Assembly: GCF_900182555.1 (NCBI RefSeq) | Contig: NZ_FXTH01000009.1 | Coordinates: 62,001 to 126,000, forward strand | Direction: 5' to 3' | Source: Fodinibius sediminis | GTDB taxonomy: Bacteria; Bacteroidota; Rhodothermia; Balneolales; Balneolaceae | DNA: 64,000 nucleotides | Shown: piece after piece, positions 18,599 to 24,548 of the stretch | Layout of the letters: every line of letters starts with the position of its first letter | Position numbering within the stretch: the first letter of the stretch is position 1 | The notes under the pieces: model-generated | Seen by the model: the letters and a program-made list of their open reading frames with translations, nothing else | What the model was told of the DNA's origin: nothing | The model's database searches: none | Made by a program: the position numbers and the translations under genes

Positions 18599-19927
18599 AT
18601 GATAAAGTTGGTACGCACTGTTATTTGCTGTATCGCCTTACTGATGGCCCTGCCATTGGATGGACAAACCCAGTCAATACCGGCACAAGCTTTCGAGAAT
18701 GTAATTATCCATACCGCTGATGGGCAGGTTATCAGGGGCGGAACAATCGTATGGCGGGATGGCTTGATCCATGCGGTCGGAAAAGAGGTTGCCATCCCCT
18801 TCGATGCTTTCGTGCGGGATGGCGGCGACAGTCTGCATGTGTATCCCGGTTTTATTGATGGCATGGCTTTATGGGGCAGTCCCGGAAACAACGGCCATAA
18901 TGGTACGCCTGAAGAACCTGGTAATCCGGGCTACAGACGAGCCGGAATACAGCCTCACCGTTTTCCTTCCAATCACCTGAAAACGAATGATGATGCCTTT
19001 TCAAAAGCTGTACAGGCGGGGTTTACAACAGCAGCACTGGCAATGAAGGGAGAAATGATGCCGGGTCAGGTTGACCTGTTTTTCATCAATGAAGACATGA
19101 GTACGAAGCAACTCCTGCAAAGGGGCATGGGCATAGTCGCCCAATTTAAGGAAGCCAAGGGATCAGCTTATCCCTCCACAACGATGGGAGTGATGGCCCA
19201 GTTTCGCCAGCTGTTTTATGATGCAGAAGCCCAGCTTGAGCAACAACGTTATTTTGCTGCTGTTTCTTCGAGCTACCCGGCTCCACCCAAAGAAAAGGTA
19301 CTGGAGGCCCTGTACCCGGTGATGCAGCAACAGCAGCCGTTCTTTTTTGTGGCCAACAGCGAGCAGGACATCAAGCGGATGTTCTGGCTGCAGGATGAGC
19401 TCAAATTCAAGGCTGTGCTGGTATCCGGCCGGGAAGCCTATAAGACCGCCCGTGAATTGAAAAAACGGGACATTCCAGTACTGGCAGGCATTGACTTCCC
19501 GGAAAAACCCGAGTGGATGCGCGACGAAGAAAAAGACAAATACGACCAAGAGCTGACTCCGGAGCAGGAACGGTTCAGGGAACGGCAACAAAAAGCATAC
19601 CGGCAGCATATGCAAAATATCAAATCTCTGCAGGACGCCGGCGTCAATGTTGGATTTGCATCCTACGGGCTGAAAGTTTCGGATGTCCGGGAAAATCTAA
19701 CCCTGCTGAAGGAAGAGGGCGGCCTTGACAGCCCTGACGTTCTGCATCTGCTGAGCCAGTCGACAGCGGATATCCTGGGATACGGACAACGAATGGGGGA
19801 TCTTAAAGAAGGACTGATTGCGAATTTTACCGTTTTCAATAAAGCTTTTTCTGAGGATAAGGCCAGGGCTCTTTATTCTATTTCCAATGGAAAGGTGACT
19901 GAGTTTGAATCTGAAACTGATAACTAG
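18599..19927 (+). CDS. Exported amidohydrolase-like protein, metal ligands missing (first of three)
   Basis: This 442-residue protein has a signal peptide (MIKLVRTVICCIALLMAL, cleavage near GQTQS). The composite amidohydrolase fold is recognisable at both ends: the N-terminal beta-sandwich (ENVIIHTADGQVIRGGTI... and VYPGFIDGMA) and the C-terminal ADILGYGQRMGDLKEGLIANFTVF. The HxH motif that normally follows PGxID is replaced by GMALWG, and the late catalytic Asp (GTDS-type loop) is replaced by FASYG. It is therefore probably not a metal-dependent hydrolase and may be a structural partner of the next gene product. The first of three tandem paralogues, it ends 9 bases before the second. Confidence 0.75.
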   Translation: MIKLVRTVICCIALLMALPLDGQTQSIPAQAFENVIIHTADGQVIRGGTIVWRDGLIHAVGKEVAIPFDAFVRDGGDSLHVYPGFIDGMALWGSPGNNGHNGTPEEPGNPGYRRAGIQPHRFPSNHLKTNDDAFSKAVQAGFTTAALAMKGEMMPGQVDLFFINEDMSTKQLLQRGMGIVAQFKEAKGSAYPSTTMGVMAQFRQLFYDAEAQLEQQRYFAAVSSSYPAPPKEKVLEALYPVMQQQQPFFFVANSEQDIKRMFWLQDELKFKAVLVSGREAYKTARELKKRDIPVLAGIDFPEKPEWMRDEEKDKYDQELTPEQERFRERQQKAYRQHMQNIKSLQDAGVNVGFASYGLKVSDVRENLTLLKEEGGLDSPDVLHLLSQSTADILGYGQRMGDLKEGLIANFTVFNKAFSEDKARALYSISNGKVTEFESETDN

Positions 19928-19936
19928 TTTTTATCT

Positions 19937-21334
19937 ATGACTATGAAACGGATTGTGCTATTGTTTTTGGGACTTTGTGTAAGTTTTAGCGGCTATGCAC
20001 AGGAAAAAGGATCCGTACTTATCACTAATGGAACGGTCCTGACGATCACCGATGGCAACAAGGAGAACACTGATGTACTTATAGAAAACGGCATCATCAC
20101 CCGGATAGGCAAGGATATTCCTGCACCCAAAGGGATCAAAACAGTAGATGCAACAGGCAAATATGTGATGCCTGGTATTATTGATGCACATTCGCATATT
20201 GCTGCTGTGGATGTTAATGAGTGGACTCACCCCGTGACAGCCGAGGTGTCGATGGAAGAGTCCGTCAATCCCAACGATATAAATATCTATTGGGCATTGG
20301 CCGGGGGGGTTACGAGCATCCATTTAATGCATGGGTCCGCCAATGTTATAGGGGGGCAAAATGAAACACTGAAACTCCGTTATGGATCAAGCATGAATGA
20401 TATGCGCTTTAAAGATGCGCCGCGAACCATAAAATTTGCGCTGGGGGAAAATCCCACCCGCGTGCACGGGCAGGGTTTCAACGTACAGCCCCGAACCCGG
20501 ATGGGAGTTGAGCAGGTAATCCGCAATCATTTCGATGCCGCACTGGATTACCGGCGGGATCGGCAAGACTACCTGGATGCCCGCGATGCGTATGAAAAGG
20601 GGGAACGGGAAAGCCCCCCGGTGCCGGTGGCTCGGAATATCCGTATGGAAACCCTGGTTGATATCATTGAAGGAGAGATACGAGTGCACTGTCATTCTTA
20701 CCGATCCGACGAAATTATGATGCTGATGCGGGTTTTTGAAGATTACGGAATTAAAAGTTATACCTTCCAGCATGCCAATGAAGCTTTTAAAATCGCCCCG
20801 GAACTCCGTAAAAATAATGCCTATACCTCGGTGTTCTCGGATTGGTGGGCCTACAAGTTTGAGGTATATTATTCAACGGCTTTTAATGCCTCCATCCTCA
20901 ATGCCAATGGCGTTATAAACAGCATCAATTCCGACAGTGGGGAGCTGATTCGCCACCTGAATCACGAGGCGGCCAAGACCGTTCATTACGGGGAAACTTC
21001 AAAACAGGACGCACTTAAGATGATCACCATTAATCCGGCTATACAACTGGGCATAGATGAAAAGGTGGGCAGTCTTGAGGAGGGGAAGCACGGGGATGTG
21101 GCAATATGGAGTGGGCATCCGCTGAGTATTTATAGTGTCGCCGAAGCCACCTTTATTGACGGGCAGCAATATTTTGACCGTTCAGGCGATCCCGATGATA
21201 TGAGGTTGGATCCCGACCCGGAGGGAAGTTTTGCGGAGGCGCGCAAGCGCTGGTATGAAGAACATGGCCGCCGGGGGGCTACCTGCATGGAAGGGGCAGA
21301 AATCCGCTTCAGCAAGCGGGGGATGCAATTTTAG
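19937..21334 (+). CDS. Exported amidohydrolase, catalytic member of the triplet
   Basis: This 465-residue protein has a signal peptide (cleavage near GYAQ/EKG). It retains metal and active-site residues of the imidazolonepropionase-like amidohydrolase group: MPGIIDAHSH (His85, His87), VHCHSY (251, 253), FQHANEAFK (His279) and SINSDSGEL (Asp333). The C-terminal sandwich block KVGSLEEGKHGDVAIWSG is intact. Family members hydrolyse cyclic amides or dipeptides; the substrate here is unknown and would be periplasmic. An ATG two codons downstream is an alternative start. It lies between two degenerate paralogues, 9 and 20 bases away. Confidence 0.83.
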   Translation: MTMKRIVLLFLGLCVSFSGYAQEKGSVLITNGTVLTITDGNKENTDVLIENGIITRIGKDIPAPKGIKTVDATGKYVMPGIIDAHSHIAAVDVNEWTHPVTAEVSMEESVNPNDINIYWALAGGVTSIHLMHGSANVIGGQNETLKLRYGSSMNDMRFKDAPRTIKFALGENPTRVHGQGFNVQPRTRMGVEQVIRNHFDAALDYRRDRQDYLDARDAYEKGERESPPVPVARNIRMETLVDIIEGEIRVHCHSYRSDEIMMLMRVFEDYGIKSYTFQHANEAFKIAPELRKNNAYTSVFSDWWAYKFEVYYSTAFNASILNANGVINSINSDSGELIRHLNHEAAKTVHYGETSKQDALKMITINPAIQLGIDEKVGSLEEGKHGDVAIWSGHPLSIYSVAEATFIDGQQYFDRSGDPDDMRLDPDPEGSFAEARKRWYEEHGRRGATCMEGAEIRFSKRGMQF

Positions 21335-21354
21335 GAATCAATTAAAGCATAGAA

Positions 21355-22698
21355 ATGATGGTTAGTCTAGTAATGATGAAAAAGAAGTATCTGAAGGCTT
21401 TTGCCCTGTCCGGCATAGCTGTTTTTCTGCTGGCAACGACGGCACAGGCGCAAATTACAGAGAAAGCAGAATTTGGAAAATTTGCCATCACTAATGTGAC
21501 GGTTCATACTGTGATTGATGGTGTTATTGAGGGCGGGGTTGTGCTTATAAATGGCGAAGAAATTGAATTTGTAGGGAGGAACGCCCGGATAACATCCGAC
21601 TATCAGCACATAGATGCCTCGGGAAAACATGTTTATCCAGGCTTTATGGATGCCGGTACGCAGCTGGGCCTGCAGGAGATTGGGGCTGTACAGGTAACCA
21701 GGGACCAGGCAGAACTGGGCGAATTCAATCCCCATGTACGGGCTTTTACGGCCATCAATCCCAGCAGCGTCAGTATACCCGTGACGCGCGTCAATGGGGT
21801 TACTCACGTGGTTTCCATGCCCGTATCAGGACGCTTATCGGGAAAAGCAACCCTTATTGATCTCTATGGATACACGCCTGATTCCATGGCCATATCTCCC
21901 AATGCAGCCATGCATCTTAATTGGCCCACTGCCATGAAAAGAGGCCCGCATGATCAGCGGAGTGACAAGGAAGTGGAAGAAGCTTATCAGAAGAATATCA
22001 AGCAGTTGAATGATTTATGGGAACGGGCTGTCTTCTATAATGAGATGATGGAATCCTATCAGGAAGGTTCTGGGGACCAAGAGCGGCCGGAGGTTCAAAA
22101 GAAATTAGAAGCAATGCGGGAGGTGATCAGCGGCAATATTCCGGTTATTATCTCGGTAGATCAGAAAAAAGATATCCTCAATGCAATAGCATGGACCGAA
22201 AAACACCCGAAAACCCATTTTATCCTGGCCGGAGTACAGGAAGGATGGCGCGTAGCCGATGAAATCGCGGAGGCAGATTTACCATGCCTGGTATCCACCC
22301 TTTATACCCCCGAACGCGACTATGACAATTATCAGCGTCCCTATCAGAATCCAGCAATGCTGCACAAGGCAGGAGTGAAAGTGGCCATCGCTACAGGTGA
22401 GATCGAGAATGTGCGCAATGCTCCCTATCATGCCGGTTATGCCGCAACCTACGGGCTCGGCAGGGAAGAAGCCCTGAAGGCCATTACACTGAACCCCGCT
22501 GAAATTTTTGGGGTAGATGATAAGCTGGGCAGCATTGCAAAGGGAAAGCAGGCCAATCTTTTTATTTCCGATGGTGATCCTTTTGAACCGATGACTCAGA
22601 TTGAACAGGTGTTTATTCGCGGGTATAAGATTCCGATGGTGAGTCGACACTCACAGCTCTATGAAGAGTATCTCAACCGGGGAGCAGAGACTAATTGA
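21355..22698 (+). CDS. Exported amidohydrolase-like protein, metal ligands missing (third of three)
   Basis: This 447-residue protein has a signal peptide. ATGs at 21373 or 21376 (MKKKYLKAFALSG) would give a more typical signal start than the first ATG at 21355. The fold blocks are clear: NVTVHTVIDGVIEGGVV, VYPGFMDAG, and LGSIAKGKQANLFISDGDP at the C-terminus. As in the first paralogue the HxH is lost (PGFMDAGTQLG) and the late Asp loop reads IATGEIENVRN. An Ala/Gly-rich region with LNPAEIFGVDD is conserved. It is followed by a terminator, so the three genes probably form one transcript. A non-enzymatic, subunit-like role is inferred, not shown. Confidence 0.75.
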   Translation: MMVSLVMMKKKYLKAFALSGIAVFLLATTAQAQITEKAEFGKFAITNVTVHTVIDGVIEGGVVLINGEEIEFVGRNARITSDYQHIDASGKHVYPGFMDAGTQLGLQEIGAVQVTRDQAELGEFNPHVRAFTAINPSSVSIPVTRVNGVTHVVSMPVSGRLSGKATLIDLYGYTPDSMAISPNAAMHLNWPTAMKRGPHDQRSDKEVEEAYQKNIKQLNDLWERAVFYNEMMESYQEGSGDQERPEVQKKLEAMREVISGNIPVIISVDQKKDILNAIAWTEKHPKTHFILAGVQEGWRVADEIAEADLPCLVSTLYTPERDYDNYQRPYQNPAMLHKAGVKVAIATGEIENVRNAPYHAGYAATYGLGREEALKAITLNPAEIFGVDDKLGSIAKGKQANLFISDGDPFEPMTQIEQVFIRGYKIPMVSRHSQLYEEYLNRGAETN

Positions 22699-23114: not shown

Positions 23115-24425
23115 ATGTTCTATAACATGGTAGCATCATTCGCCAGAACATTTGTATTATTAATGATAGCATTTGCTGTTGGAATCGCCGGCTGCGAGGG
23201 TCCCCAGGGACCGGAAGGTCCAAAAGGAACCCAGGGGCCGGAAGGGCCCGTGGGACCGGCCGGAGAGGATGGCAGCGTGATGTACGCCAGTGAGGGCACA
23301 CCGACGTCGGATATCGGGGCCAAGGGCGACTACTACCTCGACAGCAGCACCGGCGAGCTGTATGGACCAAAAGATAATGACGGCTGGGGCAATCCCATTA
23401 TTGTACTGATGGGGGAGGACGGACAAGATGGGGCCAATGGTCAGGACGGGGCGGATGGTGAAGACGGCACTACCATTCACCCGGGGTCCGGATCCCCCGA
23501 TGCCTCCGTCGGTGTGGTTGGCGACTTTTACCTGGATATGGACAATATGAACCTCTATGGTCCCAAGACGGACAGTGGCTGGGGCACGCCGACCAGCCTG
23601 ATGGGCGAGGACGGACAGGATGGGTCCGATGGCCAGGACGGAGCGGATGGTAAAGATGGCAGCCAGATCTACTCCGGCAGCGGAAGCCCGGATGCTTCCC
23701 TGGGCACCAACGGGGATTACTATTTTGATACGGCAAACAAGGAGCTGTACGGCCCCAAGACCGACAGCGGCTGGGGTACGCCCACCAACCTCAGTGGAGC
23801 CGACGGCCAGGACGGGGCTGACGGGCAGGACGGAGCCGATGGCGAAGACGGCAGCCAGATCTATGCCGGCACCGGGGCCCCCGGGGCCTCACTGGGTGTG
23901 GAAGGCGACTATTACCTGGATAAAAGCAGTTATGAACTCTACGGTCCGAAGACCGGCAGCGGATGGGGAATTCCATTGAATCTGAAGGGGGCCGACGGCA
24001 ACGCCAACGTAACACGATACCGGTTTCCAGGCTTTAGTGATGGCACTACCTTGTCTATTGACATAAACAGCGAGGCTGAAATGAGGGAGAGTGCCTGGCT
24101 TGTCTACCTGGTAGTCAGAAATTATTTCGTAACCAGCAGTCCCTTTGCGAATTATACTTATTTTCACATTCCCGGTCAGGGGCGATCCAGCGTGATCTTT
24201 GACGTTTTTCATTATTATAGCAGCTGGACGACAAATCCAAAATTGATCTTCAATATTTCAGCACGGGGAGGAAGCAGTCAATCCTACGATGCCGTGGAAG
24301 TAATAAGGATCGAATCGGAGCAAACCGAGAGCTATTTAAAACAGAATAGCGGAAACCAGGCTATCATACCTGAGGGGATTGATCCAGGAAATTATGAGGA
24401 AGTGGCCAACCACTATGGATTTTAG
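23115..24425 (+). CDS. Collagen-like repeat lipoprotein with four 64-residue modules
   Basis: This 436-residue protein has a lipoprotein signal (hydrophobic core 12-23, lipobox GIAGC with Cys27). Directly after it come Gly-X-Y triplets GPQGPEGPKGTQGPEGPVGP (29-48). Then follow four modules of about 64 residues, each made of GxDGQDGxDGQDGADG-type triplets, a short turn, and a folded stretch ending LYGPKTDSGWGTP (modules near 49-99, 100-163, 164-227, 228-291). A non-repetitive C-terminal domain (292-436) is beta-rich and has no recognised family. Proteins of this type are surface-exposed in other bacteria. The GDYYLD...ELYGPK stretch resembles a module seen in exported collagen-like proteins. 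It is alone, with a terminator 87 bases downstream. Confidence 0.82.
   Translation: MFYNMVASFARTFVLLMIAFAVGIAGCEGPQGPEGPKGTQGPEGPVGPAGEDGSVMYASEGTPTSDIGAKGDYYLDSSTGELYGPKDNDGWGNPIIVLMGEDGQDGANGQDGADGEDGTTIHPGSGSPDASVGVVGDFYLDMDNMNLYGPKTDSGWGTPTSLMGEDGQDGSDGQDGADGKDGSQIYSGSGSPDASLGTNGDYYFDTANKELYGPKTDSGWGTPTNLSGADGQDGADGQDGADGEDGSQIYAGTGAPGASLGVEGDYYLDKSSYELYGPKTGSGWGIPLNLKGADGNANVTRYRFPGFSDGTTLSIDINSEAEMRESAWLVYLVVRNYFVTSSPFANYTYFHIPGQGRSSVIFDVFHYYSSWTTNPKLIFNISARGGSSQSYDAVEVIRIESEQTESYLKQNSGNQAIIPEGIDPGNYEEVANHYGF
23412..23987 (+). repeat. Three tandem 192-base repeats inside the collagen-like gene
   Basis: Units begin at 23412, 23604 and 23796, each 192 bases (64 codons), with a shorter and more diverged leading copy before 23412. 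Copies are in frame and differ by many substitutions, so they are not a recent exact duplication. GC content is high compared with the flanking DNA. Confidence 0.85.
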
Positions 24426-24446: not shown

Positions 24447-24468
24447 GCAGAAGTAGCTCAGTGGATAG
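24447..24468 (+). other. tRNA 5'-end-like fragment (Gly-type), not a functional tRNA
   Basis: These 22 bases (GCAGAAGTAGCTCAGTGGATAG) look like the acceptor strand, positions 8-9 and D-loop of a tRNA. The 3' half of the D-stem is wrong (GTGA instead of GAGC), and no anticodon arm, T arm or 3' acceptor strand follows. It may be a remnant of a tRNA gene or an attachment site. Confidence 0.4.
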
Positions 24469-24511
24469 TGAACAGAGACTGGCTTAGAAAATAAAATGAT
24501 CCTTTCTTTTG

Positions 24512-24548
24512 AATGGGCTCAGCCGCGAGGCTGAGCCCATTTTATTTT
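24512..24548 (+). terminator. Strong terminator after the collagen-like gene
   Basis: A perfect 12-bp GC-rich stem (24513-24524 with 24529-24540) with GCGA tetraloop, extended by an A-T pair, is followed by TTTATTTT. It is 87 bases beyond the lipoprotein stop codon and downstream of the tRNA-like fragment. Confidence 0.85.

Follow-up and report, generated by a model that had tools for sequence, protein, structure and literature searches.

The window, which is the whole 64,000-nucleotide stretch of Fodinibius sediminis DNA that was analyzed, contains a genuine coding frame at 23115-24425 (+) whose 436-residue product is a predicted bacterial lipoprotein, anchored at Cys27, in which collagen triplets alternate with a small folded unit. 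We consider it probable that this lipoprotein is of the outer-membrane type and assembles into a homotrimeric beaded stalk, where the compact units would act as serial trimerization clamps, holding short acidic triple helices below a small beta domain.

The protein begins with a signal peptide and lipobox ending at the lipid-anchor cysteine (...FAVGIAG-C27; 23115..23195, +), and a lipobox was also found in many relatives. This is followed by an N-terminal Pro-rich collagen stretch (residues 29 to 52; 23199..23270, +) of eight in-register triplets, mostly Gly-Pro-X (GPQ GPE GPK GTQ GPE GPV GPA GED). Pfam recognized only the collagen triplets of the protein (PF01391, 38.9 bits versus a cut-off of 27.2), and these have the Gly-X-Y pattern. 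Four compact units, with boundaries refined from alignments, were located at residues 53 to 99 (unit 1, First-type, ...GWGNPIIVLM; 23271..23411, +), 118 to 163 (unit 2, Mid-type; 23466..23603, +), 182 to 227 (unit 3, Mid-type; 23658..23795, +) and 246 to 291 (unit 4, Last-type, ...DKSSYELYGPKTGSGWG; 23850..23987, +). Triplet-register analysis placed three Gly-X-Asp linkers of six triplets each between them (23412..23465, 23604..23657 and 23796..23849, all +). Alignment and AlphaFold modeling identified the remainder, from residue 292, as a nonrepetitive C-terminal domain, designated type A (GADGNANVTRY... to ...NYEEVANHYGF; 23988..24422, +), which is predicted to be beta-rich with a C-terminal helix. 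The original prediction of a modular collagen-like lipoprotein was upheld, and it was also correct in describing the linkers as rich in Asp, Gln and Ala rather than Pro and the C-terminal domain as beta-rich. Its division into four 64-residue modules was accurate for units 2 to 4, where the period comprises an 18-residue linker and a 46-residue unit, but not for unit 1, which comes directly after the Pro-rich stretch and, with one extra residue inserted (IIVLMG), is about 47 residues long.

A profile of the compact unit recovered all four copies in the window with E values from 1.6e-23 to 3.7e-20 (the latter for unit 1), and the repeat is therefore not due to chance. The three 64-residue copies (units 2 to 4) have 42 to 46 of 64 residues in common and are approximately 68 to 70% identical in nucleotides, while the codons at the shared residues are identical in 19 to 22 of the 42 to 46 cases (about half). 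These low identities indicate that the copies are old. In a tree of 66 units, whose fine branching is unsure because there are few columns, the units grouped mainly by position (First, Mid, Last) and not by protein or species, with 3 label changes compared to 28 in shuffles. Window units 2 and 3 clustered with their counterparts, units 2 and 3, from a different species, which indicates that the four-unit layout is also old. A recent tandem expansion in the window gene was ruled out by the codon comparison together with this cross-species clustering by position. In F. salsisoli, units 3 and 4 were almost identical to each other and represent a recent duplication.

The closest protein matches outside the genome were from F. 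salsisoli (53% identity) and Aliifodinibius species. The unit profile matched 10 of the 12 genomes of the genus and, across the phylum sample, 17 of 395 genomes in 7 of 170 genera. The number of units, which had been proposed as a feature to compare among related strains, was 2, 4 or 6 in the genus relatives that were read. One 1,337-residue open frame (L053, G325) has eight unit-profile matches and very long triplet linkers of 39 to 81 residues, and a paralogue in the window's own genome (L002, G000:C3, around 150337-150816, - strand) is an open frame of 335 residues carrying two units and another type of C-terminal domain, type B. Beyond bacteria, the unit was matched in tail proteins of Streptomyces, Erwinia, Burkholderia, Achromobacter, Agrobacterium and Sinorhizobium phages, the weakest of these matches being near chance, and was contained in the predicted structures of giant-virus collagens, for example those of Megavirus, Tupanvirus and Orpheovirus. 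Since phage tail proteins also interleave this unit with collagen triplets, and giant-virus collagens contain it, the design is less unusual than the earlier description held. A search of viral contigs found no relatives of the whole protein, and a plasmid search gave weak unit-level matches only, in Cupriavidus.

At the locus itself, the open reading frame list placed amidohydrolase-like genes upstream of the collagen gene and, downstream, a convergent gene of 184 residues followed by gatB. Three successive amidohydrolase-like frames with signal-peptide-like starts lie directly 5' on the same strand (18599-22698). A strong terminator-like hairpin (24511..24542, +), with 14 pairs and a T-rich tail behind them, was located downstream, and the collagen gene appears to terminate a transcript of its own there. 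The order of collagen gene, 184-residue gene, gatB and lipoprotein gene was kept in two other genomes (L007 and L008), where each collagen gene has two units compared with four in the window gene, indicating that unit number varies at one locus. In L008 (4992-6914), two tandem two-unit genes are present compared with the one four-unit gene of the window. The GC content was 62% in the unit region (23412-23987), 45% in the C-terminal domain region (24015-24425) and 48% in the window, part of the contrast between the two regions being due to Gly, Asp and Ala codons. A candidate tRNA remnant at 24448-24480 (GCAGAAGTAGCTCAGTGGATAG), whose sequence is like that of a tRNA gene's 5' half, was rejected after negative ARAGORN and Rfam searches.

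To judge from its sequence, the compact unit lies outside any described Pfam family, as none of 38 copies had a credible match, and comparison of the unit profile with PDB sequences gave chance-level matches only (designed propeller repeats at E values of at least 0.12 and one viral capsid chain at 3.5). AlphaFold2 modeling of unit 3 alone produced a confident monomer fold with no helix (pLDDT of 94.5), consistent with the original view that the triplets alternate with a small folded unit. In a VIA-align search with this model, the top PDB group comprised the human collagen XV and XVIII trimerization domains, whose best chains matched 47 to 48 of 49 residues at 2.3 to 2.4 A with Z scores of 5.0 to 5.4, against 2.5 for the next row, although these scores fall below 8 for a very small domain. 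This hit had also come up with another model, of unit 4 together with the C-terminal domain. Foldseek gave TM scores of 0.52 to 0.68 by query length for these domains, with E values of 0.8 or worse. Profile-profile comparison of the unit with PF20010, the Pfam entry of the collagen XV/XVIII (multiplexin) domain, was not significant (hhalign P of 0.25, matched by 55 of 300 shuffles), and a PF20010 search found none of the 12 genus genomes above the cut-off, no match at the units and none among the 38 unit copies. Because sequence comparison gave no support for descent, we limit the claim to function and not membership: the unit would work like the collagen XV/XVIII trimerization domain. It seems distinctly unlikely that the two share descent, such that a collagen-zipping module became dispersed across phages, giant viruses and bacteria and gave rise to, or came from, animal basement-membrane collagens, with its serial use in bacteria letting acidic helices of few triplets exist.

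Of the sequence evidence, the register of the inter-unit linkers in related proteins spoke most strongly for the linkers acting as triple helices. All 50 linkers that were delimited, of which a few may derive from loci that overlap in the same gene, were multiples of three, between 6 and 81 residues long, and carried Gly at each third position; four more lay outside the pattern used. This strict register indicates that the collagen spacing is under selection, and it was retained in the relatives despite quite different X and Y residues. In the Balneolaceae relatives, Asp occupied 161 of 182 linker Y positions (88%) compared with 20 of 155 in other relatives, and with 27 of 256 (about 10%) in these Balneolaceae proteins' own N-terminal stretch. 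The Asp dominance is peculiar to this lineage, and it is unusual in that Thr is the predominant Y residue of bacterial collagens (review, PMC8968730).

Together these findings led us to favor the following arrangement. Three chains would begin at their lipid anchors, enter the Pro-rich triple helix and continue as Gly-X-Asp triple helices, three in number, short and acidic, each flanked on both sides by a beta unit of approximately 46 residues, before finishing in the small beta-rich domain. Each unit would nucleate and lock the three chains in register, as the collagen XV/XVIII trimerization domain does, which would allow helices of no more than six low-Pro, Asp-rich triplets to form, while the number of units would set the length of the stalk. 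Known trimerization domains align chains and start collagen folding (PMC5126661), and a Klebsiella phage K1 lyase has an N-terminal domain with the collagen XVIII trimerization fold that forms a similar trimer (PMC8822698). This arrangement is favored by the triplet register, the confident unit model, the collagen XV/XVIII fold match, this lyase precedent, the position of the unit between triplets in a phage tail protein, its occurrence in other tail fibers and in predicted viral collagens, its position-specific conservation across species and the PF01391 match. Against it stand a fold match without sequence backing, the poor Foldseek E values, the low Z scores for so tiny a domain, the lack of a helix in the unit, unlike what is published for this fold in the lyase (PMC8822698), and the use of Asp at the Y position, where it does not favor triple-helix stability.

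Several known systems share parts of this layout. The collagen XV/XVIII domain (PDB 3n3f, 3hon and 3hsh) resembles the unit in its size of about 50 residues and its place beside collagen triplets, was its whole-length match in the fold searches, and differs in having no significant sequence similarity to it, whereas the window unit has no helix and is used in series. In the minor tail protein of Sinorhizobium phage Phosso (XYS97521.1), three copies of the same unit (51% identity over 47 residues) alternate with Gly-X-Y triplets, but this is a virion protein without a lipid anchor and with other N- and C-terminal domains. A second kind of interspersed unit, with four copies of KSAY..AV..GFVG.EA.W.ASL, was observed between collagen triplets of the Phosso tail protein (L016, 1885-4098). 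The K1 lyase domain has the collagen XVIII-type trimerization fold in a phage protein, yet it is a single copy on an enzyme, and the available part of its description mentions no adjoining collagen triplets (PMC8822698). The E. coli O157 prophage proteins EPclA and EPclB join collagen stretches to noncollagen domains, are trimeric and vary in collagen length in threes (PMC3368898), but they use PfN, Pf2, PCoil and PfC domains, to which the window protein had no Pfam match. Legionella Lcl (PMC11162425, NF046116) also has a collagen stalk of variable repeat number and a C-terminal domain; however, DUF1566 is absent from the window protein, which scored 33.3 bits against a cut-off of 500 for NF046116, in the collagen part only, and Lcl binds the surface through an N-terminal helical region and not a lipid (PMC11162425). 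The window protein also scored below the cut-offs of the Scl1/Scl2 streptococcal adhesin models (NF038329, 56.3 versus 325 bits; NF038330, 32.3 versus 400 bits).

The C-terminal domain is, by alignment, the fastest-changing part of the protein, with 34 to 43% identity between relatives and the window protein, or 46 to 55% when the last unit is included. Type A was found in 17 of 92 family genomes. A profile search of the PDB gave no solved-structure match, and the fold search gave only middling matches, the best (Z of 5.9) to a phage P1 baseplate chain, with weak resemblances to phage tail and viral beta domains and no family assigned. Type B, which is a probable distant relative of type A (hhalign 70%, local match), was found in 46 of 395 genomes, often in open frames of 160 to 250 residues, and no Pfam entry was found for it. 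Three full type B sequences proved to be small Bacteroidota lipoproteins that share the signal peptide, the cysteine and a short collagen stretch with the window protein but have no compact units.

The stalk proposed above could project outward from the outer membrane as a surface adhesin, with the C-terminal domain as an adhesive or ligand-binding tip as in Lcl, whose trimeric C-terminal domain binds glycans (PMC11162425); we regard this as a real possibility, though short of an even chance. The combination of anchor, stalk and terminal domain is a known adhesin layout, and the rapid change of the C-terminal domain and its faint likeness to phage tail and viral domains fit such a role, but the missing DUF1566 and the lack of a solved-structure profile match do not. 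Moreover, the residues after Cys27 (EGPQG) include Glu at +2 but no acidic residue at +3, which was present in 13 of 22 SusD-like lipoproteins of the source genome; the acidic surface-export signal after Cys was defined in other Bacteroidetes (PMC5080379). The words "surface" and "adhesive tip" in the original prediction were not supported. The absence of such a motif would suit a periplasmic spacer instead, with the N terminus in the inner leaflet of the outer membrane, the stalk reaching across the periplasm and the C-terminal domain in contact with the cell wall or a partner. A Niabella drilacis protein (L013, 4953-5912) has the same lipid anchor and collagen stretch with three units and ends in an OmpA domain (PF00691, 33.7 bits versus a cut-off of 27.2). 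A lipid anchor with an OmpA domain is the arrangement of Pal-type lipoproteins. This relative would thus be a Pal-like lipoprotein with a collagen-type stalk, and by analogy it suggests that a stalk of this type can be periplasmic. We nevertheless find a periplasmic location somewhat doubtful for the window protein, as its own C-terminal domain is not OmpA by Pfam and, with four beads added to 26 triplets (approximately 22 nm, taking 0.286 nm per residue), its stalk would be a long one to fit in the periplasm, the six-unit relatives being longer still.

Two further readings question the collagen nature or the origin of the protein. Six Pro-free triplets would form a weak helix alone. Together with the concentration of Asp in the linkers of this lineage, this could mean that the Gly-X-Asp linkers are flexible polyanionic spacers, perhaps binding divalent cations, and that collagen is confined to the Pro-rich N-terminal stretch. 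We judge this unlikely, since a flexible spacer needs neither strict triplet spacing nor Gly at every third residue, yet both are kept at all linker lengths and by relatives with quite different X and Y residues. That the unit is common in phage tail fibers might instead mark the gene as a stranded tail-fiber gene, an origin that we consider extremely improbable given the signal peptide and lipobox, the cellular genes on both sides with no phage genes recognized among the neighboring frames, the gatB synteny in two other genomes and the presence of the unit throughout most of the genus.

The proposed homotrimeric beaded stalk with its serial clamps offers a testable role, that of a predicted trimerization clamp, for a unit that lacks a Pfam entry and spans Bacteroidota, phage tail fibers of several host genera and giant viruses. 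If true, a clamp role would explain how very short triplet runs hold together in prokaryotic and viral collagens, and the unit would provide a small bacterial trimerization tag. The near-exclusive use of Asp at the linker Y positions would furnish a clean natural case for learning how a salt-loving lineage keeps acidic triple helices stable.
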